DNA of 64,000 bases from Methanofollis aquaemaris (lineage in GTDB: Archaea > Halobacteriota > Methanomicrobia > Methanomicrobiales > Methanofollaceae), in assembly GCF_017357525.1 (NCBI RefSeq), contig NZ_CP036172.1, forward strand, positions 1,710,561 to 1,774,560. The letters are read 5' to 3'. Positions 26,988 through 45,567 of this stretch are shown piece by piece (position 1 is the stretch's first letter; every line of letters begins with the position of its first letter). The position numbers and the translations under genes are program-made. Under the pieces are notes generated by a model. It was not told the origin of the DNA. It ran no database searches and saw only the letters and a program-made list of their open reading frames with translations.

Positions 26988-28091
26988 GTGACGAAGATGC
27001 GATATGGTATGGTTATACTCCTCCTTCTGCTGGCGGTGCCGGGGATCGTCCTTGCCGACGATGCGACGATGGAGGCGATCGGTGCGAAGGCGGCGACGGT
27101 GGCGATGGATCAACTCGGATCGGCGGAGGGCGATGTCAATCTGCTGGCGATGACCGATGCGGGTTGTGCGATGATCGGGAAAGAAACAACTGAGAAGTGT
27201 CTGAACGGGGTGACCGATGTGAGCGGGTGCACCATCGGCGATGCGAATCTCCTCATCCCCCAGAGGAGCAAGTTTTCGCCGCTGTGGTTCTTCTTCTACA
27301 AGAAAGACTCCGGTGAGGCGGTCTTCCTCCAGGTGAACGGCACGGCGACGGCACGTTCGGCCGCAGAGATCACGAAGATGCCGGCCGATGAGGTTTTTGC
27401 CGTCATGGCAAAGAAGCAGATCGATGCGGCGTACATCCTGAAGAACCAGAGTGTGTGGACCGAATATCTTGAGAAGAAGGTCTTTGCCGGGAACGAGTTC
27501 AGTCTCATCACGATCGCCAATGTGTGGGCTGATCCGGCGACGACATACGATTTCCTCAGGGCCTCCGCCTTCCACAACCACCTCTGTCCGGGTGTGACGA
27601 GCGGGTACCTCATCTCTCACTACGTGGAGGAGAACCTCCCCATCGAGAGCCCCACCCAGAGTTACAAGGTCATCGCCTGCCCGGTCTGGTGCAAGGACGA
27701 TCTCTTCCCGATCGTGTGGGACGCGACGCCGGGGAAGCGGGGTCTTTTCGTGAAGGATCTCAGCGCGGTCGAGAAGGCGGCGCTGAAGGAGAGTCTCGGG
27801 ACCGATGTCGCGGGGATCTATGTGAGGTGGGACGCAGCCACGAAGAGCGGCGACGGACTGGTCGTGGGATACAACTGGACGCGGAGCAATGAGGTGACCG
27901 GCACCGCCGACTGGAAAGGAAACCCGTCGCTCGCAAAACTGGTGATGGACCTCGAACTGATCGATTACACCGACCGGCCGGAGGAAGTGGTCTCGACGGT
28001 CAAGGTGTTCAGGTGCGAGAGCCCGGAGGAGTTTTCCATGCTCACCTATGCCGGGGTCAACCCGCTGAAGGTGCTGGGCGTGGAGGCGTGA
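26988..28091 (+). CDS. Exported FmdE-like protein
   Basis: 367-residue protein with an N-terminal signal peptide (MRYGMVILLLLLAVPGIVLA) and, in its second half, the FmdE domain: SAFHNHLCPGVTSGYLISHYV near residue 200 (start SAFHNHLCPGV). FmdE was first found with tungsten formylmethanofuran dehydrogenase, but its role is unproven. The cysteines of CPVWCKDD and GCTIGDANLL may hold metal. An exported form cannot serve the cytoplasmic dehydrogenase, so a surface metal- or cofactor-binding role is more likely (inference). Start GTG 26988 follows AGGTGA by 5 nt; ATG 26997 is possible. Confidence 0.8.
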   Translation: MTKMRYGMVILLLLLAVPGIVLADDATMEAIGAKAATVAMDQLGSAEGDVNLLAMTDAGCAMIGKETTEKCLNGVTDVSGCTIGDANLLIPQRSKFSPLWFFFYKKDSGEAVFLQVNGTATARSAAEITKMPADEVFAVMAKKQIDAAYILKNQSVWTEYLEKKVFAGNEFSLITIANVWADPATTYDFLRASAFHNHLCPGVTSGYLISHYVEENLPIESPTQSYKVIACPVWCKDDLFPIVWDATPGKRGLFVKDLSAVEKAALKESLGTDVAGIYVRWDAATKSGDGLVVGYNWTRSNEVTGTADWKGNPSLAKLVMDLELIDYTDRPEEVVSTVKVFRCESPEEFSMLTYAGVNPLKVLGVEA

Positions 28092-28250
28092 AGATCCTTT
28101 GAGCGAGGCGTGGGATCACTCTCCTCTTTCTTTTCAACATTTTTTTTCTTTTTCTCCTCTGATCATCGGGGGCAGTCTTCTCTTCTCTCGTTGTGCCGGC
28201 GGTGGGCGATAGATATTAGAGGAAGGGTGGCGAAAACCATAGGTGCAGGC

Positions 28251-28333
28251 GCGAGAGTAGTGAAGCGGCCAAACACGGGGGACTCAAGATCCTCTCCTGT
28301 AGGGGTTCGTCGGTTCGAATCCGGCCTCTCGCA
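28251..28333 (+). tRNA. tRNA-Leu (CAA anticodon)
   Basis: 83 nt. Acceptor GCGAGAG (28251-28257) pairs with CTCTCGC (28326-28332), discriminator A. A long variable arm (CCTGTAGGGG region) marks a class II tRNA. The anticodon loop CTCAAGA has CAA, reading UUG. The T-arm has GTTCGAAT. No intron and no encoded CCA. Confidence 0.93.
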
Positions 28334-28401
28334 TTTCTTTTTGGGGTTCGTTGAATTTCTTGTTGACAGGATAGAATTCTTCAAAAAAAGAATGGATCGA
28401 T

Positions 28402-29307
28402 TCAATCCTCTGAAAAGTAGTCGTGATCAATTTTTTTGATCGTATATTTTTCGTACGTGCTCACTCCCAGATCGTATTCAATCATCAGGTCGACAAGTTT
28501 CGCGCCGTCGATGAGAGCGACTTTGAAATTTGGTTTTTGAGCTACGGATTTTGCCGTGTCGGTGAACTTTGACGTGGTAATGAACACGCCTTTCCTGGCC
28601 CCTTTTACCGTTAATGATCCGATAAAGTTGCGGATTTCTCTGCTGTCTACGGAATGTGCCCGGTCCCATCGTTTCGCCTGGATATAGATCTCATCGATGC
28701 CAAGTTTGTCCATCTTAATTATTCCGTCGATACCTCCGTCGCCACTCTGCCCGACGACTTTCCCGGCATCTGATCGCGACCCGCCATATCCCATTGCCAC
28801 GAGAAGGTCGACAACCAATTTCTCGAAAAAGTCCGGACTCATCGAAAGTATTTGATCGAGCAGATCGGAAGCCAATGAATTTTTGATCTCCTGATAACTT
28901 TGTTCGAGCATTTCTTCAGGAGATATTAATTTTGGATCGACATTCTCCGGTGTTTCTGTTTTCGTTCCATTCACAAAAGTCTGGAATTCATCGAACTGCA
29001 ACAGGAATTCCGAATCCATTTTTTCCGGAGTACCCTGTAAAACCTGAACTCCTCGTTCTGTGATCTTGACCATGCCGCGTTTTGAATTGTCTACCAGTCC
29101 GGCCTTCTTCAAATATGTCTTGGCCCATCCGACCCTCGACCGGAAAACCGTCATTTTTCCACTTGGCAATAATTCTATTTTATCATCGTCTGTCAGATGG
29201 AGAATGTCTGCAAGTTCTGTTCTCACCTCCTTAATCTGGCGAATCTCTCCGTCTTCGAGGACGTGGAGCATCGGGAGCATGAACTCTTCATATGATGGAA
29301 CCGGCAT
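28402..29307 (-). CDS. mrr: Mrr-type restriction endonuclease
   Basis: 301-residue type IV restriction enzyme that would cut modified DNA. Seen: N-terminal winged-helix Mrr_N domain (about 1-95; PMLHVLEDGEIRQIKEV, RVGWAKTYLKKAGLVD), a linker, and a C-terminal PD-(D/E)xK-like nuclease domain with FFEKLVVDLLVAMGYGG, SGDGGIDGII and IYIQAKRW. The Asp of GGIDG and the Gln-x-Lys of IQAK are the catalytic set. It is more AT-rich than the core genes and lies in an accessory stretch; no methylase or other restriction gene is adjacent. Confidence 0.92.
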   Translation of the reverse strand: MPVPSYEEFMLPMLHVLEDGEIRQIKEVRTELADILHLTDDDKIELLPSGKMTVFRSRVGWAKTYLKKAGLVDNSKRGMVKITERGVQVLQGTPEKMDSEFLLQFDEFQTFVNGTKTETPENVDPKLISPEEMLEQSYQEIKNSLASDLLDQILSMSPDFFEKLVVDLLVAMGYGGSRSDAGKVVGQSGDGGIDGIIKMDKLGIDEIYIQAKRWDRAHSVDSREIRNFIGSLTVKGARKGVFITTSKFTDTAKSVAQKPNFKVALIDGAKLVDLMIEYDLGVSTYEKYTIKKIDHDYFSED

Positions 29308-29381
29308 AAAACGAATTTTGTTTTTGTCTTAAAATGTTCATCGATTTTATAAGGCCATTAGAAGGAGATTTCAATTAATTT

Positions 29382-29624
29382 GGCTGTGTAGAAACCATCC
29401 GGGCGGCTATCTTTGTGGGGGGTTGGCCACCCTCCCGTCCCCCCGCGTCAGGATAGGGACGGCAACGGCAACTCCTTCTTCATGTTCATCGATTTTGCCT
29501 CCCTGGTCCAATCTTCATCCTCGGGGTGGGGTGTGACGGAGCCCCGGCGCGAGAATGAGGGAAGGCGATGGATTCAGTTCGCATGGGGAATTAATTGATG
29601 AAAATAGAATGCTTTCTACGCGGC
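29382..29624 (+). mobile_element. MITE-like dispersed repeat, copy D
   Basis: A 243 bp non-coding element with imperfect terminal inverted repeats: GGCTGTGTAGAAACCATCC (29382-29400) and, on the other strand, GCCGCGTAGAAAGCATTC ending at 29624. The inside matches copy B for about 170 bp (CCCCCCGCGTCAGGATAG, AACTCCTTCTTCATGTTC, GATTTTGCCT). It has no transposase. It ends 2 nt from the stop codon of the next gene. Confidence 0.65.
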
Positions 29625-29626
29625 TA

Positions 29627-30265
29627 TTACAATAAATAGTACGTAATCGCAGCGCAAAGCAAACCAACAGACAGTGTAATAATAATCTGCCCTATGTGAT
29701 TGTTGCGTTTTTCTATGTTCTGTTTTTGTTCATATTCTATCATGCTGGGAATTTTTGAATCTATTACTGATATGTAGTCTTTTATTTCAGATATAAGATT
29801 AATGTAAGCATCTATTGCTTGAATGTCCGGGGATCCAATGTCTTTTGAAGCCTTGTATAATGGGATATTATTCAGGCTCTTCTCAATCTCAGGTTTTATT
29901 TGTTGGTAATATTCTGGAAAAACATCATGTATTGTAGTTATGGAAAAATCAGATAATTTATTTGAAATAATATCTTTTTGATAGATTCTGATATAATCGA
30001 GTAAATCATAAACTGCGCGATAAATATGCCTAAAAGTAGCATCTAGATTTGAATCGATATATTCGCTGTTTTCATGCTTCAGACCACATTTCACAGCGAA
30101 AATTCTCATGAAATGATCATATGCATCTTTGATCTCATTTATAGGGGGAATAAAAGACTCTGATCGTAATTCTTCTGCATATAGTGCTAGATATTTGTAT
30201 TTTTGATAAAGAACTGTTATTTCATAGAGCCGACTACTCTCGACATCGTTGAATTCTAGATCCAT
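29627..30265 (-). CDS. Orphan protein with C-terminal membrane helix
   Basis: Unrecognised 212-residue protein. About 185 mostly helical, charged residues (rich in Tyr, Ile, Asp, Lys) are followed by a basic patch and one C-terminal hydrophobic helix (IGQIIITLSVGLLCAAITYYLL, about 191-212), so it is probably a tail-anchored cytoplasmic protein. The gene is strikingly AT-rich compared with the 60+ percent GC of its neighbours, which suggests recent transfer. It follows a 62-residue gene by 11 nt on the same strand, so the two may form an operon. No family can be named. Confidence 0.6.
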   Translation of the reverse strand: MDLEFNDVESSRLYEITVLYQKYKYLALYAEELRSESFIPPINEIKDAYDHFMRIFAVKCGLKHENSEYIDSNLDATFRHIYRAVYDLLDYIRIYQKDIISNKLSDFSITTIHDVFPEYYQQIKPEIEKSLNNIPLYKASKDIGSPDIQAIDAYINLISEIKDYISVIDSKIPSMIEYEQKQNIEKRNNHIGQIIITLSVGLLCAAITYYLL

Positions 30266-30276
30266 AAATGCTCGGA

Positions 30277-30465
30277 TTAAGGTAGAGGTTTACTTAATAT
30301 CTCTTTTTTTTCGCTCAAGAATTCCTCAGAAGTCTTAACTCTCCCCAACGCTAGCCTCACACTGCCCATCCGATACCTTTTTGCTTCATTAGTCAGTAAT
30401 TCCCTGTTAATTACCATAGGACGTAAGTTGCGTTCCCAGACATCATCATGAATCACTTCACTCAC
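30277..30465 (-). CDS. Orphan small protein, 62 aa
   Basis: Unrecognised 62-residue protein, charged and without membrane segments or cysteines. Central NRELLTNEAKRYRMGSVRLALG may be an amphipathic helix pair. It is AT-rich like its downstream neighbour, 11 nt away. Size and pairing would suit a toxin-antitoxin or defence accessory protein, but no motif supports that. TGAGAGGTGAG lies just upstream of ATG 30465, a very good ribosome site, which supports that the gene is real. Confidence 0.55.
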   Translation of the reverse strand: MSEVIHDDVWERNLRPMVINRELLTNEAKRYRMGSVRLALGRVKTSEEFLSEKKEILSKPLP

Positions 30466-30582
30466 CTCTCAATCTCCCAGAATTACATGTACTAATATTA
30501 TAACATGATGGATTTGCTACTTAATGTCTGTAAGTATGTAAATGCGGTATATATTCTTTTTGAAATTAAAATGGTGTGAGAT

Positions 30583-30846
30583 TTATCTTCTCTGGCCCAT
30601 CTTTCCAGGAATATCTACTGGGCGACCTCCAGGGAGGTCTATGACACGGGGGAGAGGGGTCGTCCCGATCCTATTTGCATCGTGCATGGAATTGCACCGG
30701 CCTGCAATCCTACGTTGTCGGTGAACGTGTAGATTTTTGAATCGAAATCGATAATCACGATCAGATCGTCTGGTCTTTCTCTGTGAGTACACCCTGACGA
30801 CGGCATCCCTGATATCCTCCAGGTAGAGCAACAGGTTCCTAGGCAT
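30583..30846 (-). pseudogene. HEPN (DUF86-type) toxin gene remnant
   Basis: The frame starts MPRNLLLYLEDIRDAVVRVYS, as HEPN/DUF86 toxin partners of MNT antitoxins do. After about 25 residues it loses any resemblance, and the RxxxxH active-site region is absent. Its ATG overlaps the stop of the MNT gene, the normal arrangement of an intact pair. The rest of the frame is arginine-rich and looks non-native. The toxin appears to have been truncated and joined to unrelated DNA. Confidence 0.6.
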
Positions 30847-31144
30847 AAACGACCTCGCTGAGAACAGCGTCCTGGATCGCGGGCTTTAACGTATCGGCAA
30901 TGACAAGGTCCCCCCTCCGCCCCAGAAGATCTTCGAGGTAGAAGGTGAGGTCCATGAAGTGGTCGAAGGTCTCCTCCCCCTCCCTGAACTCCACCAGAAC
31001 ATCGATGTCGCTCGCCGGGGTGGCCTCTCCCCGCACGGCGGACCCGAAGATCCCGATACGTGCCACGCCGTAACGTTCCCGAATGGTGCCGAGGTTCCGC
31101 TGGATCCGGTTGAGGGGTTCCATCTCTCTTCTGGGATAGTGCAT
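30839..31144 (-). CDS. MNT-type nucleotidyltransferase (MntA-like antitoxin)
   Basis: 101-residue minimal nucleotidyltransferase. Seen: RIGIFGSAVRGEATPASDIDVLVEF, the GSxxRGE and DxD metal motifs. In MntA-HepT modules this type adds AMP to the HEPN toxin and neutralises it. Here the HEPN partner that overlaps its stop is broken, so it is an orphan antitoxin or has another target. Start ATG 31144; a second in-frame ATG is at residue 8. Length is normal. Confidence 0.88.
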   Translation of the reverse strand: MHYPRREMEPLNRIQRNLGTIRERYGVARIGIFGSAVRGEATPASDIDVLVEFREGEETFDHFMDLTFYLEDLLGRRGDLVIADTLKPAIQDAVLSEVVYA

Positions 31145-31229
31145 ACTCCCTCTTATAGCGTGCGGATCCGCTCCGTCCGTCCCACCCCCCGGCGGTCAAA
31201 CACACCGATGAGCGAGATCATCCCCCCCC

Positions 31230-31980
31230 ACGTTCACGTTTACCCTGGTTTTCACCGACATACACTAAGAAAGTGTCACCCGACGGACGATCATTCGGGA
31301 TGCGTTCGCCGATCCCCCCCATTTCTCCCCATCTACTCCGTCATGATCACTCAAACGCCGATCGCGCACACGGCCCCCCCGAACCCCTAAAAGATCGGAT
31401 GCGCCCCGTGCCCCCCCGTTTTAGTGTAACATAGTACTCTGAGAGAGAGAGATCTCTCTTCTCTCTATAGAATACGTATTCAAAGCCCGCTCCTCCGTCC
31501 CCTTTGTGTTCACTTTTCAGTGTAAATCCGGTGAAAACAGGGTGAAAAGATGTCACCGTCGGCCGCGGTGTGAGCGGCACCGTCCCGGACCATGCTTTCA
31601 GCAGACCCCCCTGTTTTTCAGCGATCTTCAGCAGGTTTCGGCAGGTGCTGTCATCCAACGGACGACGAAGGATGGTTTGATCTCGATGATCTCCATCACA
31701 CGGTGATATCACCGGATCGATTTCAGCATTCCGGGGTTCGCGCACACACACCCGGACAGCGGAGAACCGGTGGCGCCGTGTGGGGGTGGATTCTGCTGTA
31801 CTTTACTATGGAGAGAGAGATCTATCTCTCTCTCTGTATTAGTACCGTGAAATCCGACGCCTTTCCCGGCTCTTTGATCATGACAGCACCTGCTGAAAAT
31901 CTGCTGAAAACCTGCTGAAATGCTGAACTCGTCGTCGCCGCCCGGACCCGGATCACCGCACCGCATCTATGAGAGGATGA
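31230..31980. repeat. Gene-free region of inverted and low-complexity repeats
   Basis: No credible gene is seen in 31145-32217. Instead there are inverted pairs: ACCCTGGTTTTCACC (about 31241-31255) against GGTGAAAACAGGGT (31529-31542); the mirror sequence GGTGCTGTCAT (31643-31653) against ATGACAGCACCTGCTGAA (31879-31896); and two GA/CT microsatellites, at 31439-31465 and 31808-31836, in opposite orientation with similar flanks. CTGCTGAAA motifs repeat several times around 31890-31925. It may be the relic of a mobile replicon or a DNA-structure element. Confidence 0.6.
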
Positions 31981-32217
31981 CCCTCCGGGGATATAACATC
32001 GAGTGACGCGGGGTGAATGTGAGGCCGTGCTCCAGATCTCTCGTCATGACCGGGCGGGTGACGAGAACAGAGTACACCCCCATATCTTCGCCGCGGGGCG
32101 GCATCACGTGCGTCAAGATTTTCTTCCGGCGATCATTATGACCGTGCACCCCTGCGAGAGAACAGGAGATGAAGCGGAACCAAAAAGGTACGAAAAAAGT
32201 ATCAGACATTCGGGTGA

Positions 32218-37359: not shown

Positions 37360-38085
37360 TCACCCCGCCCTGACCAGGCTTCCCGAGCCTGAGATCTCCT
37401 GAGTCACGACGGGATCGCCGCGGTAGATGGCCGCCCCGCTGCCCGCAATCTGCACGTCGAGCGCCCCGGTCGCCAGCACTTCGGCCGCGCCCGATCCGCT
37501 GATCACAAGGTTTGTCCGTTCGGTCGTCAGGTCGAAGCCCTTGAGTGCTCCCGACCCGCTGATCCCGGCATTGTGTTCGGCCGCCGTCCCGGAGAGTCGC
37601 GCCTCCCCCGATCCCGAGATGGTGGTCTCCAGGGTGGTCACGTTCATGCCGAGGTCGAGGTTACCGGACCCGCTGATCGCCGTCTCCAGACGCCCGGCGA
37701 CGATCTCGTTCTCGCCCTGCACCGTGCCCGACCCGCTCACCGAGAGACGTTGCACCTCCTCCATCGTCACCCTGACGATGACCGGCCTGGTGTTCCGGAC
37801 GCATGCGGCGTCGAGGTCGACGACCAGCACCCCGTCGGAGACGCGGGTCTGCACCAGGGGTACGATGTTGTCCTCGGCTTCGATCACGAGCGGCCCGGAT
37901 GCGCCCTGCGTCACCATCACCGTCGCGAAGGTGTTGAGTTCCACGCTCTGAAACGCCCCGACATCCCGTGTCTCCGATACCACGTTCCCCGACCCGACCG
38001 TGCAGGGGGGCTGGACACACCCTGCCGTCAGCACGAGGACGAGCAGCACCGCCGCCGCCGCGAAAAGATATCGTATCATCGTCAT
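37360..38085 (-). CDS. DUF2807-domain lipoprotein
   Basis: 241-residue surface lipoprotein with signal peptide and lipobox VLTAGC (Cys23). The body is a right-handed beta-helix of the putative autotransporter adhesin head type (DUF2807). Seen: VELNTFATVMVTQG and at least five copies of the turn motif (I/V)SGSGxx at 16-24 residue spacing. Such proteins bind surfaces or cell-wall material; function is unproven. It is on the same strand and directly downstream of the four-Cache gene, 44 nt away, so probably cotranscribed. Confidence 0.85.
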   Translation of the reverse strand: MTMIRYLFAAAAVLLVLVLTAGCVQPPCTVGSGNVVSETRDVGAFQSVELNTFATVMVTQGASGPLVIEAEDNIVPLVQTRVSDGVLVVDLDAACVRNTRPVIVRVTMEEVQRLSVSGSGTVQGENEIVAGRLETAISGSGNLDLGMNVTTLETTISGSGEARLSGTAAEHNAGISGSGALKGFDLTTERTNLVISGSGAAEVLATGALDVQIAGSGAAIYRGDPVVTQEISGSGSLVRAG

Positions 38086-38129
38086 CACCCGCTGTCCCTC
38101 ATGACGGGGGGCGATAAAAAAAGATAGGT

Positions 38130-39908
38130 CTATAGACTCTCGTCCACGACCGTCGAGACCGGCACCCCGGCCCCGATCCACCACTCGCCGTCCACCGGGA
38201 GGATGTAGTCGAGACGTTGCCCGGAGCCTTCGGGGGTTGAGATGAGATACCCGCCGCCGTTCTCCGCGACCGCCGCGCCCTCGACGACATAATGGACGCC
38301 GTACTCCCCGACGGCGCCCGAGCAATCGGTACCTTCGGCATCGGGCCGGGCGGGATCGGCGAGGAGCACGCCGTCGCGGCTGAAGGCATAGACCGGGTGG
38401 CCGCCGACGGCGAACTCCCCGGCGGGGTCGCGGAACGCGTCGAGCGCCGCGTCCTTCCCCTCGCACAGCGCGTACTCCCTCGCCTCCTCGACCGCACCGG
38501 TCAGGTTGGCGAGGACGGAGAGGGGTTTGCCGCTCTCAGGGTCCGCGAGGTCGGCGAGGTAGACTCCCGACCCGATCCACCAGTCGTCTCCCGCCTTCTT
38601 CACGTACCCGAGTTTCGGGGTGAGCGTGAAGTTGTCGGCCGGGTCCTGGTACATGAACATGAAGTAGCCCTCGCCGATCGCCGCCGTCTCGCAGAGCCCC
38701 TTCACCAGGAGAAGACCGTGGGGATCGGTGGCGTTCATCCTGGACACCCCGACCTTCTGCGGGTGGACCGGGTGGGCAAGGGTCGTGCCGTTGAAGTCCT
38801 CGACGTACAGGTAGAGGTTCCCGTCCACGAACTCGCCGTCGCGCTTCCCGAAGTCACTGAGCGCCTGTTCCTTCCCGACCGCGTCCGCATGCTCACAGGC
38901 CTCTCTGACAAAGGTGACCACGTCGCCGAGCGTCCGCCCGTCGCACGAGGGTGCGGCCCTCTCATCGCCGGCGATGTCGCTGAGGTACAGCCCCGACCCG
39001 ACCCACCATCTGTCGTCCACCGGGAGGACATAGCCGAGTTTCAGTTCGGGCGCTCCGCCTTTTGCCGGGTTCTCCCAGCCGAAGACGACGAACCCGCCGC
39101 CGTTCCTCGCGGTCTCCGCACAGACTTCGATGACCTTGACCCCGTACGGCCCCACGTACCCGGAGAGGTCGGTGCCGATCATGCCGGGGGCGAGGTACGG
39201 GTGGGCGACGAGGGTGCCGTCGTAGTCGTAGGCGTAGAGGTAGAGGTTGCCATCCGTGAACCGGCCGTCCTGTTTGTCGATCTCTGCCAGGGCGGCGGCG
39301 GTGCCGTTCTCATGGGCGTACGCGACCGCAGAGCGGGTGAGGGCGGTCATGGTGGTGACCTCCGAGGGCAGTTCCCCGGTCGACTCGTCGACATAGTCGG
39401 AGAGGTAGACCCCCGACCCGATCCACCAGGTGTCGTCCACCTTCTCGACATATCCCAGTTTGACCTCGTAGAGGTTCTGCATCTCCTCGTCGATCTCCCG
39501 CTCTTCGCCGGGCGGGGGATACATGTAGACGACGTACCCGCTCCCGCCCCTGGCGACATCGCTTGCCGCCTGGACGAAACGGAGCCCATTTGCGGTGGTC
39601 CAGTTCGTCCGGTCGGTCCCGACCTTCTCCGGTTGGTACGGATGGGCAAGGAGCGTGTTGTTGAAGTCGTAGGCGTAGAGGTAGAGATTTCCTCTGACAA
39701 AGGTTCCGTTTTTATCGGAGAATGCTGCGAGAGCCTCGTCTTTGTCGACGCTCCGGGCGTAGGCGGCGGCGTCATGGACATATGCTTCCAGATCGTCCCC
39801 GGTGGTCCCGGTGCTCTGGTCTGTCTCTCCGGTCATACACCCGGCACAACAGAGCGCCAGGAGGAGTACGGCCGTGATGCCGATGAAGACAGCGGCGGAC
39901 CTGTTCAT
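38130..39908 (-). CDS. Lipoprotein of four tandem Cache domains
   Basis: 592-residue extracellular protein with lipobox LCCAGC (Cys24), then four Cache-type units of about 125-140 residues (about 40-171, 185-310, 325-450 and 460-590). Each has GNLYLYxxD in the middle and WW(I/V)GSGxYL at its end; the fourth unit is more diverged (GGHPVYAFSRDG, WWIGAGVPV). Cache domains bind small ligands in sensors, but there is no transmembrane signalling part here. It may be a ligand-binding lipoprotein that presents to another receptor or transporter (inference). It has no obvious partner gene besides the DUF2807 lipoprotein. Confidence 0.85.
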   Translation of the reverse strand: MNRSAAVFIGITAVLLLALCCAGCMTGETDQSTGTTGDDLEAYVHDAAAYARSVDKDEALAAFSDKNGTFVRGNLYLYAYDFNNTLLAHPYQPEKVGTDRTNWTTANGLRFVQAASDVARGGSGYVVYMYPPPGEEREIDEEMQNLYEVKLGYVEKVDDTWWIGSGVYLSDYVDESTGELPSEVTTMTALTRSAVAYAHENGTAAALAEIDKQDGRFTDGNLYLYAYDYDGTLVAHPYLAPGMIGTDLSGYVGPYGVKVIEVCAETARNGGGFVVFGWENPAKGGAPELKLGYVLPVDDRWWVGSGLYLSDIAGDERAAPSCDGRTLGDVVTFVREACEHADAVGKEQALSDFGKRDGEFVDGNLYLYVEDFNGTTLAHPVHPQKVGVSRMNATDPHGLLLVKGLCETAAIGEGYFMFMYQDPADNFTLTPKLGYVKKAGDDWWIGSGVYLADLADPESGKPLSVLANLTGAVEEAREYALCEGKDAALDAFRDPAGEFAVGGHPVYAFSRDGVLLADPARPDAEGTDCSGAVGEYGVHYVVEGAAVAENGGGYLISTPEGSGQRLDYILPVDGEWWIGAGVPVSTVVDESL

Positions 39909-41287: not shown

Positions 41288-41641
41288 ATGGGTGCAGGAA
41301 TAGATCTGATTCGTGGAGTTGATTCCCTGAGTAATTTCAGAAACAAAAAAAAGAACGTGAGTGAGGGAGAGGTCGTACGGGTTCGCCTGCCGAACAAAAA
41401 GAACAAGGAGATGTTTGCGAGCGCAGACCTGATGCTCGGAGCGAACCACATCCGTGTCCGTTGCTTTGACGGCACCACCCGTGTCGGCAGGATCAAAGGG
41501 AAGATCAAGAAGCGCGTCTGGATCCGTGAAGGCGATACTCTGATCGTCGTGCCATGGGACTTCCAGGCTGAAAAGTGCGATATCATCTACCGATATACCC
41601 GTCCCCAGGTGGACTGGCTCCGCGGCCACGGATATCTTTGA
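41288..41641 (+). CDS. eif1A: Translation initiation factor aIF1A
   Basis: 117 aa as drawn. S1-like OB-fold initiation factor that helps place initiator tRNA in the ribosomal P site. Seen: VRVRLPNKKNKEMFASAD, HIRVRCFDGTTRVGRIKGK, KKRVWIREGDTLIVVPWDF and YTRPQVDWLRGHGYL, all conserved. The start is doubtful. ATG 41288 lies only about 13 nt after the TATA-like TTATAT (41270-41275), so a transcript would begin downstream of it. GGAGTTGAT (41315-41323) is a near-consensus ribosome site just before in-frame CTG 41327; GTG 41357 is another choice. Confidence 0.95.
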   Translation: MGAGIDLIRGVDSLSNFRNKKKNVSEGEVVRVRLPNKKNKEMFASADLMLGANHIRVRCFDGTTRVGRIKGKIKKRVWIREGDTLIVVPWDFQAEKCDIIYRYTRPQVDWLRGHGYL

Positions 41642-41649
41642 AAAAAAGA

Positions 41650-41656
41650 TTTTTTT
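41650..41656. terminator. A/T-run between convergent aIF1A and pilin-like operon
   Basis: AAAAAAAGATTTTTTT at 41641-41656 has a T-run in both strands, and may end transcription of aIF1A and of the convergent operon whose stop lies at 41666. Confidence 0.4.
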
Positions 41657-41665
41657 GTCGGGTGC

Positions 41666-42409
41666 TCAGATACCGAGCACCTCGACCTCATATTTTTTGA
41701 TGATCAGTTTGTCGACACCGTCGAGGGTGTAGGTGTTCCCGCTCTTTGTCATCTTCAGGGTGCCGTTGAGATAGTTCTCCCAGGCCTTCGAGAACTCTCC
41801 GGTGTAGGTGGCCTGCACGTTTCCGTCAGATGGGGTCAGGGACGAAACATTGGAACTACTCAGTTTCATCCGCACCGTTCCCATCCCGTTCCTGAACATC
41901 TCGGTGCTCGCGTTCAGGGCGACGAGGTTGATGACAAAGGTCTTCTTGCCGTTGTTATTATCGACATACCACCGCGGCTCGGCGATCATCGAAGATCCCC
42001 CGGTCTGCGCCCGGATAACCGCCCCATTCTCCAGGGCGATGGTGGCATCCTGGGAGTCTGCGGTGTAGATCAGCATCCCTGTGGGGAAGGACATTGTATT
42101 CCCACTTGCTGTGATGTTCAGCCACGATCCTGTCTTGGTGACATTCTCCACAGCGAGCACCCCGCCGGCCACCTGGAGGGCGGTCTCTTTGTAGGGGACG
42201 TTCTTGTAGCAGAGGCTCTTGATGTCGTTCTGGAGCACCACCATCGTCTGTTCCATGTTGCGCACGTCGGCGTTGCTCTGCTGTTGCAGGAGCATCGGAT
42301 AGCCGTACAGGGTGATCAGGGCGATCCCGGTCATCACCAGTCCGAAGATGATGATGAACCCGATCGCCTCCGAGACGCCCTCCTCATTCTTGATGTGAAA
42401 TGCTTTCAT
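41666..42409 (-). CDS. Pilin-like protein, DUF7289 type
   Basis: 247-residue extracellular protein anchored by one N-terminal helix: EEGVSEAIGFIIIFGLVMTG after a short charged start, then MEQTMVVLQNDIKSLCYKNVPYK and an all-beta ectodomain. The start resembles the haloarchaeal family I recall as DUF7289 (E-x-I-G-F helix followed by a DNxxxL motif). Such proteins act as pilin- or pseudopilin-like subunits. It is the last gene in a six-gene operon, 3 nt after the preceding stop. A class III signal peptidase site (Glu near helix start) is plausible. Confidence 0.72.
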   Translation of the reverse strand: MKAFHIKNEEGVSEAIGFIIIFGLVMTGIALITLYGYPMLLQQQSNADVRNMEQTMVVLQNDIKSLCYKNVPYKETALQVAGGVLAVENVTKTGSWLNITASGNTMSFPTGMLIYTADSQDATIALENGAVIRAQTGGSSMIAEPRWYVDNNNGKKTFVINLVALNASTEMFRNGMGTVRMKLSSSNVSSLTPSDGNVQATYTGEFSKAWENYLNGTLKMTKSGNTYTLDGVDKLIIKKYEVEVLGI

Positions 42410-42412
42410 CCG

Positions 42413-42859
42413 TTAAAACCCCGCGGAGTTGTAGGAGATCTTGTTGATCCCGGTGCCGGTGGTGTTTCCTGCAACGCCCATCGTCGCCCCGATCCCGGCG
42501 ATGGAGATCCTGCTCATGACGTCGCCCCGCGAGACCACCACCTGCTGGTTGGAATCGAGTCGGCCGACGTCGAGACTGACCTGGTATCCCTGTCCGGCGA
42601 CATCGTCGGGGATGTCGAAGGCGGTGGCGATCGATCCGTTGTCGGGGGCGAGCACATAGACGTCGACGATCCGCGTCGAGATCCCGTTGCCGATGTCGAC
42701 GAAGGAGTGGTAGGCGAGGCGGTCCGAAGGGCCTTCCATGAAGATCGCGTTCACCGCGAAGGTCATGAGGATGAGGAGGACCACCAGTACGCCGGAGATG
42801 GTCATGTACTCCACCATGTTGGAGACGCCGTCTTCGTCAGTAATATGCGGTCTCATCAT
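42413..42859 (-). CDS. Pilin-like protein (short, N-terminal helix)
   Basis: 148-residue protein: charged start MMRPHITDEDGVSN, one hydrophobic helix (MVEYMTISGVLVVLLILMTFAV, about 15-36) with Glu at helix position 2-3 as in type IV pilins, then a beta-rich ectodomain. Resembles haloarchaeal DUF7266/DUF7287-like pilin-cluster proteins (recalled, not searched). Its start overlaps the preceding gene by 23 nt, so translation is coupled. Confidence 0.68.
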   Translation of the reverse strand: MMRPHITDEDGVSNMVEYMTISGVLVVLLILMTFAVNAIFMEGPSDRLAYHSFVDIGNGISTRIVDVYVLAPDNGSIATAFDIPDDVAGQGYQVSLDVGRLDSNQQVVVSRGDVMSRISIAGIGATMGVAGNTTGTGINKISYNSAGF

Positions 42860-43223
42860 ACTCGGTCACCCCGTTGTTGAAGTGGAACACGGTTTTGTTG
42901 TACGTTTCCCCGGACAATTCTGTCTTTTCGACTGAGTAATCCACGATGGCGTTATTTCGGGCCTCTTCAAGTGCGATGATGTCGTTTCGAATGTTTTCAT
43001 TCACCGTACCGTCAGCATTATACACATCACCTGAATCGATGAGGGTGGAGACCTCGCTGGTGAAGTCCCGGATCTCCTCTTTCGGGAACTCGAGCACGCC
43101 CTCGGCGGTGGTCTGTCCGACCAGCGTGGACTGGTTGATGACGAGGGCCAGGAAGAAGAAGGCCACCGCCACCATGAAGCCCATCAGCACGATCCACTGC
43201 GCTTCGTTGTCTAACTTCTCCAT
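42837..43223 (-). CDS. Pilin-like protein (EAQWIVLMGF type)
   Basis: 128-residue protein with N-terminal NEAQWIVLMGFMVAVAFFFL (helix about 6-30), then a stalk helix (FPKEEIRDFTSEVSTL) and a small ectodomain. The G/E-Q-(L/W)-hydrophobic start is like haloarchaeal DUF7261-type proteins. Overlaps the upstream gene by 13 nt and the downstream one by 23 nt. No cysteines. Confidence 0.68.
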   Translation of the reverse strand: MEKLDNEAQWIVLMGFMVAVAFFFLALVINQSTLVGQTTAEGVLEFPKEEIRDFTSEVSTLIDSGDVYNADGTVNENIRNDIIALEEARNNAIVDYSVEKTELSGETYNKTVFHFNNGVTEYDETAYY

Positions 43224-43720
43224 AGCAGCACCTCCAGGAGCACGACCTGTTTATGGTCTTCGAGTGGACACCCATCTGGTCTGGAACTATCTTCTGGCAC
43301 TGTCACCAGCCGCGTCACTCGCACCGCCTGTTCGTAACCGGTCGGCTGTTGTGAGAAGGTGAAATTTGTGTTCTGCACGGTATTGGCGGCGGCATTACGA
43401 TACGAGATTGAAGCCTCGTACTCGAGCATGTCTGTCCCTGATGCCCGGTTGTTCAGAAGGTTCCAGAAACTGGCGTTAAAACCGGCTCTGTTCCAATTCT
43501 GGACATATCCAACAAGTTCGCTATCGGCCCCCTGTGTTGTCGGCGTGTCCATCACCGCCAGGACGTCGCTGCCGATCTGTTCGAGTTGCATGTCGGTGAT
43601 ATGCGAGTCGCCGGGGGTGTAGATGCTCGTTGTCCCGCCGACGAGGTAGGCCGTCGCCAGGATGATGAACGCGGCGGCAAATCCTTCGATGGTGTAGAGC
43701 TGCGCCGAGTCGTCTACCAT
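43211..43720 (-). CDS. Pilin-like protein, DUF7288 type
   Basis: 169-residue protein. AQLYTIEGFAAAFIILATAYLV (residues about 6-27) closely follows the pattern Q-x-Y/H-T-L/I-E-G of the haloarchaeal family I recall as DUF7288, with Glu at the helix start as in type IV pilins. The ectodomain is beta-rich with one Cys near the end. The start overlaps the preceding gene by 7 nt and the end overlaps the next by 13 nt. Confidence 0.72.
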   Translation of the reverse strand: MVDDSAQLYTIEGFAAAFIILATAYLVGGTTSIYTPGDSHITDMQLEQIGSDVLAVMDTPTTQGADSELVGYVQNWNRAGFNASFWNLLNNRASGTDMLEYEASISYRNAAANTVQNTNFTFSQQPTGYEQAVRVTRLVTVPEDSSRPDGCPLEDHKQVVLLEVLLWRS

Positions 43721-44727
43721 ACGGCCACCTCCAGCACGGCGCGGGTGAGGGGGGAGGGTGTGGAACTATAATCATAGATGTCGTTGAGATACTGCCATGA
43801 TTCGGTTGTTGTTTTGTTAAATGTGAACTTTATATCCACAGTTTCGCCTGGTTTAACGATGTCATAGGTGAAGAATCCGGGCTCAAGGGTGAGGGTGATA
43901 TTATTCTCGACATCGATTGTTGACGGTGGGGGGCTTTGAGACACGCCGTCGACCATCAGACTTGAGTATCGTGTGTCCTGGAAACGGTTGCGAATCTCGC
44001 TTGTCCCGTGGAAAAGTCCAAGACTCTCAAATTTTGCTTTAGGTGATGTAGAGTTGAGGTTTATGATTTTCACCTCGATCCTGTCCTCATAGGGGTCGAC
44101 CTGATAGGCCTGGGGTTTATTCAGGATCTCTGAGAAGTCCAGTCTGACCGCGAAGGTTTTGGGCCCGATACTATTAGAGGAATTCAGATCTGACGAGTCC
44201 AGTTCCACTGGCCCAACGTCCTTCACCATCACCACCCGCCGGATCGACCCGTAGTCGGTTGTATCCTTCGGGACCGGCGCCCCGATGATGCGGGCATTGC
44301 TCTCGTCGACTTTCTTCAATGAGATGTTGAAGGCGTACGGATAGTCTGAGAAGAAGATTTTATCTCTATAATCGCCGGGGTTGGCCTCGTACGCGGTCTG
44401 GTTGAAGAACCTGTCCACCTTCGCCATCGAGAGGACGCCCGGTGTGTCCTTCGAGACTGCAAGCCCTATCCTCCGTATTGCCTCGTCTTGCTCGCCTTGC
44501 CAGTGGGAACCAGTCCTCCCCCCGGTATCCTCGAACCACCCCGGATCCTCGACCAGGATCACGCCGGTCCGGTAGGCGACGGCGTCGTAGTCGACAGTCG
44601 AACTCTGGAGCGAGGCGAGCATCCCGGGAACCATCGAGGCCGCGATGATGAAGGCGAGGAGGAAGACGGTGAACCCCGCGAGAAAATCGATGGAGAGGAG
44701 GGCCGAGTCGTCGTTTCGCAGACTCAT
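43714..44727 (-). CDS. Large pilin-like membrane-anchored protein
   Basis: 337-residue protein anchored by an N-terminal helix (LLSIDFLAGFTVFLLAFIIAAS, about 10-32) and a large extracellular part of mixed helices and beta strands with several N-glycosylation-type Asn-x-Ser/Thr sites. Asp precedes the hydrophobic stretch at the place where pilins have Glu. It is the largest of the five pilin-like proteins and could be the adhesive or tip subunit (inference). It overlaps the lipoprotein gene by 4 nt and the next gene by 7 nt. Confidence 0.68.
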   Translation of the reverse strand: MSLRNDDSALLSIDFLAGFTVFLLAFIIAASMVPGMLASLQSSTVDYDAVAYRTGVILVEDPGWFEDTGGRTGSHWQGEQDEAIRRIGLAVSKDTPGVLSMAKVDRFFNQTAYEANPGDYRDKIFFSDYPYAFNISLKKVDESNARIIGAPVPKDTTDYGSIRRVVMVKDVGPVELDSSDLNSSNSIGPKTFAVRLDFSEILNKPQAYQVDPYEDRIEVKIINLNSTSPKAKFESLGLFHGTSEIRNRFQDTRYSSLMVDGVSQSPPPSTIDVENNITLTLEPGFFTYDIVKPGETVDIKFTFNKTTTESWQYLNDIYDYSSTPSPLTRAVLEVAVW

Positions 44728-45263
44728 GGAAGCGCCTCCCCGGTATGTGCATCAAAGGAGAGGGACTCGGTCTGCTTCTCCTCCGACCTGACCGTGTAGG
44801 TTCCGTCGATGAGGACGAGTTCGGTCACCTCGCCGAGCGATCCGATCTCGGCGGCATGTCCCGGGTAGAGATCAACGGGCATGACAACAGCGTCCAGGTC
44901 CACCGGATTTTCAGGGAGCGGGCCGTGCCAGACATAGCGCGACCACCCTCCCTGAGAGTGGACCATGAGGGAGGTGTTCCCGGCCTGCCGCACCCCGAGC
45001 GTCCAGGTGGTTGCGTTCCCGGTGCTGTCCACACCCGAACCGCTCACGGTGACGATCTCCATCCCGGTCAGATCCTCCAGGCCCTCGCCGTCGAGAACTT
45101 CGAGTTCCCTGAGTGCCTCTTCGAGCCCGATCCGCATCTCTGCGGGCTCGGTGGTAATGTCCTGGATCCCGCCCCCGCCGGCTGGCGCCGAGGTGCAACC
45201 GCAGGTCCAGGAAAGGACGAGGATGCAGAGACCCAGGAGGGGGGCGAGGTGCGCGAGTTTCAT
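44724..45263 (-). CDS. Lipoprotein, first gene of the pilin-like operon
   Basis: 179-residue surface lipoprotein: signal peptide with lipobox WTCGC (Cys23), a Gly-rich spacer, then a compact alpha/beta domain with SLMVHSQGGWSRYVWHG and ELVLIDGTYTVRSEEK. No family recognised. It starts the six-gene operon and ends with a 4-nt overlap (ATGA-like) with the next gene, so it is translated with the pilin-like proteins. It may be an assembly or anchoring factor for them (inference). Confidence 0.75.
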   Translation of the reverse strand: MKLAHLAPLLGLCILVLSWTCGCTSAPAGGGGIQDITTEPAEMRIGLEEALRELEVLDGEGLEDLTGMEIVTVSGSGVDSTGNATTWTLGVRQAGNTSLMVHSQGGWSRYVWHGPLPENPVDLDAVVMPVDLYPGHAAEIGSLGEVTELVLIDGTYTVRSEEKQTESLSFDAHTGEALP

Positions 45264-45567
45264 ATTAGAGATCCATTTTGGGGAGATTGGTATATATGTT
45301 ATTCGAATTTTAATTGCTTCACATTGGGGCTTAAATCGTTGTTTTCAGGATTATAGTGCTGGATCTCGCCTGGGCCATGATCCGCGGCATCGGGGCGTGC
45401 GGCCTGCAGTGCGGGAGAGTGACCAGTCGGGTGCTCTCTCTCTGTCGGGGCCGGGGATGGCGATGACGGAAGCTGATGCCATATTTTATTTTGGAGAATA
45501 TTGTTCTGATCAAATCCGACGCGGCGTGATCTCTATCGCAAAGCGTATCTCCGATCAGGCAGCACCC

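Follow-up and report, generated by a model that had tools for sequence, protein, structure and literature searches.

A probable type IV pilus operon of Methanofollis aquaemaris, encoding a lipoprotein and five putative minor pilins

The tip complexes of bacterial minor pilins and pseudopilins consist of several low-copy pilin-like proteins that are encoded as a fixed set. Among archaea, the PilA/PilB3 adhesion pilus of Haloferax volcanii has stand-alone PilA-type pilins, with motor and pilins encoded apart. A second archaeal system, the PilB4-type euryarchaeal type IV pilus, was defined computationally by Makarova, Koonin and Albers in 2016 and has its own pilin set beside an ATPase and TadC (PMC4858521, Figure 4B). 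Here we examine six minus-strand genes at 41666-45263 of a 64,000-nucleotide stretch of DNA from Methanofollis aquaemaris (the window hereafter), taken from a closed chromosome of 2.75 Mb (positions 1,710,561-1,774,560). The genes encode a lipoprotein and five pilin-like proteins, and we refer to the set as the cassette. We propose that the operon probably contributes its five pilin-like proteins as minor pilins, and its lipoprotein as an accessory, to an archaeal type IV pilus with a motor encoded at 886-892 kb and a stand-alone PilA as the shaft subunit.

At loci from the families f13, f21 and f23 of the phylum (L073, L074, L079-L082) and from f9 (L086-L088), the protein families of the cassette lie beside an ATPase and TadC, for the most part in the same order, with DUF7261 unrecognised in some of these motor-adjacent loci (G, L and f numbers are our labels for genomes, loci and taxonomic families). 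Judged by gene order, the Methanofollis cassette is a PilB4-type set. PMC4858521 uses arCOG numbers, the DUF72xx family names were not found in the literature searched, and the identity of the DUF families with the PilB4 set rests on gene arrangement. While families and order are alike at L073, L079, L081 and others, the Methanofollis set differs in lying about 860 kb from its proposed motor, in having TadC split into two genes, in its additional leading lipoprotein gene and in having a stand-alone PilA as the likely shaft. The missing motor adjacency was not counted as excluding the PilB4 type because Makarova et al. treat motors and pilin sets as exchangeable and separable (PMC4858521). An earlier note on this DNA had seen here a separate, scarcely studied appendage system, which was too strong a claim for a set that matches the PilB4-type pilus (PMC4858521). 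The note had also allowed for a different mode of assembly; the evidence instead favors a PilA-type pilus of the ordinary sort, to which these proteins contribute minor pilins, over a new assembly route. The system is thus already known from computation, and the likely motor assignment is the new part.

Relatives were searched for the cassette with hidden Markov models that had been built up from the proteins of the window. It was found in the same order at 20 loci from six families of Methanomicrobiales, one of them ending at a contig edge, and the lipoprotein was unrecognised in two of the 20 even with a wider model. A genome scan gave 80 named loci, of which 64 had enough sequence for a test of gene order and 77 were scored for the lipoprotein. 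The five pilin-like genes were in intact order at all 64 testable Methanomicrobiales loci, indicating that the arrangement is not due to chance; the lipoprotein was recognised at 65 of the 77. Conservation of the gene set in relatives had been named as a test in the earlier note, and the set is indeed kept together. The neighbouring genes for eIF1A, DUF1015, RimI and HMG-CoA reductase recur around the cassette in relatives, which argues for an inherited rather than a mobile locus. Neither an ATPase nor TadC was present in the retrieved stretch at any of the 80 Methanomicrobiales loci. Across the phylum, DUF7288 occurs in 97 of 148 genomes. Some genomes have two or three DUF7288 copies (G048, G094, G104, G122, G150, G154 and G161), and at L075 the entire cassette is doubled in tandem.

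The six open reading frames (ORFs) were all confirmed as the earlier note had written them, in place, strand and spacing. Successive genes overlap by 4, 7, 13 and 23 nucleotides (nt), followed by a 3-nt gap before gene 6. Upstream of gene 1 is a putative TATA-like element, and downstream of gene 6 a putative terminator-like T-run, beyond which lies the eIF1A gene, convergent with the operon. The TATA-like element at the 5' end, together with the T-run and the convergent eIF1A at the 3' end, fits a single transcription unit (Table 1).

Table 1. Features of the operon (window positions) and its proposed partners (chromosome positions); aa, amino acids.
Feature	Position	Strand	Remarks
Gene 1, lipoprotein, 179 aa	44724..45263	-	signal peptide and lipobox TCGC
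Gene 2, DUF7287 pilin-like protein, 337 aa	43714..44727	-	PF23958 1.7e-10, above cut-off; ends LEVAVW
Gene 3, DUF7288 pilin-like protein, 169 aa	43211..43720	-	PF23959 8.6e-15, above cut-off
Gene 4, DUF7261-like pilin-like protein, 128 aa	42837..43223	-	PF23922 0.0071, below cut-off
Gene 5, DUF7266-like pilin-like protein, 148 aa	42413..42859	-	PF23928 26.8 bits, cut-off 27.6
Gene 6, DUF7289 pilin-like protein, 247 aa	41666..42409	-	PF23960 2.7e-27, above cut-off; start EEG-VSEAIGF
TATA-like promoter element (catatata)	45290..45316	-	putative, read from sequence; about 30 nt upstream of gene 1 ATG
Terminator-like T-run	41640..41662	-	putative, read from sequence; downstream of gene 6 stop
Stand-alone PilA-family pilin (Pilin_N)	840,348-840,749		proteins of this kind about 130-160 aa
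Candidate machine: ATPase (783 aa), two TadC, MinD-type ATPase	886,375-892,197		about 860 kb from the operon

Pfam matches were judged against the curated cut-offs, and structural models were made by AlphaFold2. The families DUF7261, DUF7266, DUF7288 and DUF7289, which the earlier note had named, were all borne out to some degree: DUF7288 and DUF7289 matched above the cut-off, DUF7266 just below it and DUF7261 weakly. DUF7287 (gene 2) is an additional family that the note had not named. Among the aligned relatives, DUF7266 was matched by 15 of 15 for gene 5 (best 3.6e-29) and DUF7261 by 9 of 15 for gene 4 (best 4.3e-12). A DUF7261 search of the genome itself at E 0.001 found nothing because gene 4 resembles that family weakly. 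None of the six operon proteins matched the virus protein families.

In alignments, the N termini of all five proteins are pilin-like, and a beta-rich part is predicted after the helix. The earlier note gave all five an acidic residue where the hydrophobic helix begins. This is true of gene 2 (LLSIDF), gene 3 (QLYTIEG, in which the Glu is invariant in the alignment), gene 5 (VSNMVEY) and gene 6 (VSEAIGF), but not of gene 4, where the acidic residues of the start NEAQWIVLMGF precede the helix and none falls within the helix start. The model of gene 2 has a single long N-terminal helix (7-43) and then a beta-rich part, with a predicted local distance difference test score (pLDDT) of 80; at this middling model confidence, a fold search found nothing significant (best Foldseek E 9e-3, best Z 5.8). 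The profile of gene 6 matched the solved type IV pilins 8qqj, 8fj5 and 8gi2 weakly, with E values of 0.13-0.68.

The earlier note had reasoned that the assembly machine must lie elsewhere, and a fitting one, an ATPase with two TadC and MinD, is encoded on this chromosome at 886-892 kb. Searched for secretion ATPases of the pilus or archaellum type, the genome yielded four, together with a PIN-KH ATPase and an additional match that was weak. One of the four belongs to the archaellum and one, at 0.247 Mb, lies in a PilA-type/S-layer locus with pilins of its own. The other two have no pilins beside them: a TadA/TadC pair at 1.896 Mb, and the 886-892-kb locus, which also encodes a 216-aa protein. 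Phylogenetic distribution favors the latter. The cassette, as marked by DUF7287, was found in 37 of 41 genomes, and all 37 have the split-TadC machine, an assignment read from the pattern of matches and confirmed by best matches at the loci examined. G031 and G036 have neither machine nor cassette; because they share one genus, they count as one event. In seven genomes (G018, G024, G027, G028, G029, G034 and G039), the only ATPases are of the archaellum, PIN-KH and 886-892-kb types, with length and score used to tell the types apart; every one of these single-motor genomes retains the cassette. The cassette-less loci L106 and L107 (in G031 and G036) hold another pilus locus, with an ATPase of the 1.896-Mb type and TadC, and several DUF7289-like proteins are found near it at L107.

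Two further components of a pilus are encoded in the genome. A prepilin peptidase (PF06847, 1.5e-24) lies at 897 kb within the machine locus, and the peptidase, HisI and PIN-KH are near the machine in nine of nine relatives examined. The PIN-KH ATPase gene (MJ1533-like; L041:2466-4397, corresponding to G000:C1:898466-900397, and L193-L201) adjoins the peptidase and is near the machine in the same nine of nine; genes of this kind have been said never to occur in secretion contexts (PMC4858521). The second component is the stand-alone PilA at 840 kb, which resembles the solved archaeal type IV pilins 8fj5 (7.2e-10) and 9myg (9.3e-10). A match similar to it was found in 40 of 41 relatives. Pilin_N matches occurred in eight of eight genomes tested, namely the window genome and the seven single-motor genomes, and those recovered as ORFs were mostly alike. 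In five of the single-motor genomes, a pilin of this kind was the sole match at E 1e-6. PilA is likely to be the shaft subunit, contrary to the dedicated major pilin proposed in 2016.

From these parts we infer the following course of assembly, in which the processing, the filament, the partnership with PilA, the priming or tip role and the role of the lipoprotein are all proposals. The five proteins would be made as prepilins and cleaved by the PibD/FlaK-type prepilin peptidase, after which the 783-aa ATPase and the two TadC membrane proteins would insert the cleaved pilins. The cassette complex would most likely initiate the fiber and possibly remain at its tip, with the 840-kb PilA supplying the shaft and being added beneath. 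The lipoprotein may be an anchor or a helper at the outer face of the membrane. A tip role is perhaps supported, indirectly, by the vWA, PKD or Ig domains that are carried by DUF7266 (L088) and DUF7261 (L091, L085) proteins of relatives. Elsewhere in the phylum, cassette pilins can be very long (758-795 aa; L088:6387-8759, L091:7037-9313 and L085:6683-9070). The comparison with bacterial tip complexes extends to the fixed gene set and to the adhesin-type domains on some cassette members in relatives; the likeness seen here is one of organization, and in the archaeal case the tip position is a proposal.

Five ordered subunits, one of which (gene 4) lacks the acidic helix-start residue, also recall the five pseudopilins of the type II secretion system (T2SS), and an order-wide, vertically inherited set would be in keeping with a housekeeping machine. 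The five proteins might then form a short T2SS-like pseudopilus, with no long fiber, that pushes or holds exported proteins, and the lipoprotein would have a place in the export path. We consider this unlikely since a PilA-type pilin is present in the window genome and in each of the seven single-motor genomes, with the window copy resembling pilins of long pili. Besides, no cargo has been linked to the set, whose members carry adhesin-type domains in relatives.

A further possibility is that the minor-pilin cassette is served by the 1.896-Mb TadA/TadC pair, by the 0.247-Mb PilA/S-layer motor or by any of the motors in turn. An exchange of motors between pilin sets has been argued for by Makarova et al. 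(PMC4858521). Moreover, the TadC adjacent to the cassette in other lineages is fused as at 1.896 Mb and scores best against the 1.896-Mb TadC. The 1.896-Mb pair was in fact our first choice on account of these best TadC scores, and it was rejected by the phylogenetic profile and the trees. The TadC score is biased because TadC of the proposed machine is split in two. In 11 of the genomes with the cassette, no orthologue of the 1.896-Mb TadC is present, and seven of the 11 have the proposed motor as their sole pilus motor. In a tree of the ATPases, the cassette-adjacent ones clustered with the 886-892-kb ATPase and not with the other two motors (91/96; 93/88 without two long branches). When haloarchaeal PilB3 was included, it formed one group with the two other motors of this genome (86/90), so that both again stood apart from the cassette-adjacent ATPases and from the proposed machine. 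Service by another motor is hence improbable in our view. Based on the co-occurrence profile, the census of the seven genomes and the ATPase tree, the 886-892-kb machine is strongly suggested as the partner motor of the cassette. The same trees place the system relative to that of H. volcanii: encoding motor and pilins apart and having stand-alone PilA-type pilins are common to both, whereas the proposed Methanofollis ATPase falls outside the PilB3 group and it is the 1.896-Mb motor that groups with PilB3. A first ATPase/TadC tree of 13 rows had little resolution and was not used. PilB3_N and PilB3_C were also tried as a marker of cassette-linked ATPases; they do not discriminate, because true PilB3 proteins carry both more strongly and PilB3_C is weakly present in one relative of the 1.896-Mb motor.

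The filament is a prediction and the outside parts are long (337 aa for gene 2), yet it is very improbable that the five are single membrane-anchored envelope proteins that never polymerize, given their type IV pilin-like N termini, their fixed co-inheritance with a pilus motor and their direct adjacency to a motor in other lineages.

Several points weigh against the pilus we propose. Gene families, gene order, conservation and the presence of a motor, a peptidase and PilA can be read directly from the sequences; filament, processing and expression are predicted here from the genes. For the motor, the pairing is argued from co-occurrence and from a tree whose support is moderate, and the cassette could also be served by the other motors of the genome, of which there are two. 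G015 and G038, both draft genomes, have the machine and no cassette was found in them. In the tree with PilB3, the cassette-adjacent ATPases and the 886-892-kb machine were not resolved relative to each other. For the shaft, the partnership with PilA is deduced from its presence, and Makarova et al. propose for the set its own major pilin, arCOG03926, independent of PilA (PMC4858521). For the tip, the vWA and PKD domains belong to distant relatives and not to the window proteins.

The first gene encodes a lipoprotein, as the earlier note had it, with a signal peptide and a lipobox. It had no match in Pfam or NCBIfam. Among the loci studied it is confined to Methanomicrobiales and absent from some of those; it is a lineage-specific addition. 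Its AlphaFold2 model, a confident one (pLDDT 88.8), has as its nearest solved fold 4exr, the putative lipoprotein CD1622 of Clostridioides difficile (Z 10.4, root-mean-square deviation 3.2, 123 residues aligned, 15% identity), and a profile comparison with 4exr gave a weak match (E 0.17). Although the folds are alike, there is no common context, and the title of 4exr names no function, so that it gives no information on the role of gene 1. The next folds, DUF2874 proteins and the YpeB domain, which raise the question of a PepSY-like fold, scored Z 4.0-4.3, a range in which chance matches are frequent.

Much of the methane-forming life of digesters, wetlands and sediments belongs to the Methanomicrobiales, whose means of attachment to partners or surfaces are poorly known. 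The list of parts assembled here covers a single pilus, from its shaft and five minor pilins to its motor, peptidase and lipoprotein. It makes the system testable in a single-motor species such as G024, and it offers a direct test for a minor-pilin tip complex in archaeal pili. If true, a PilA shaft with such a complex would correspond, in archaea, to the tip complex that minor pilins form in bacteria, and the PilA shaft would revise the 2016 model of an own major pilin independent of PilA. We suggest only tentatively, as a conjecture that may well fail, that an ancestral pilus of this kind, with a five-protein minor-pilin complex for priming or at the tip, a dedicated lipoprotein and a PilA shaft, is shared by the whole order Methanomicrobiales.

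Other features of the window were observed in passing. The minus-strand ORF at 38130-39908 encodes a 592-aa lipoprotein whose translation has four similar segments resembling repeated Cache-type sensor domains. The one at 37360-38466, also on the minus strand, shows in translation a lipobox followed by repeats of an SGSG motif, which makes it similar to DUF2807/GIN-domain surface proteins, and its called start is probably too early. The segment at 28001-32000 has a G+C content of 45-50%, compared to about 60% around it, and was perhaps acquired.

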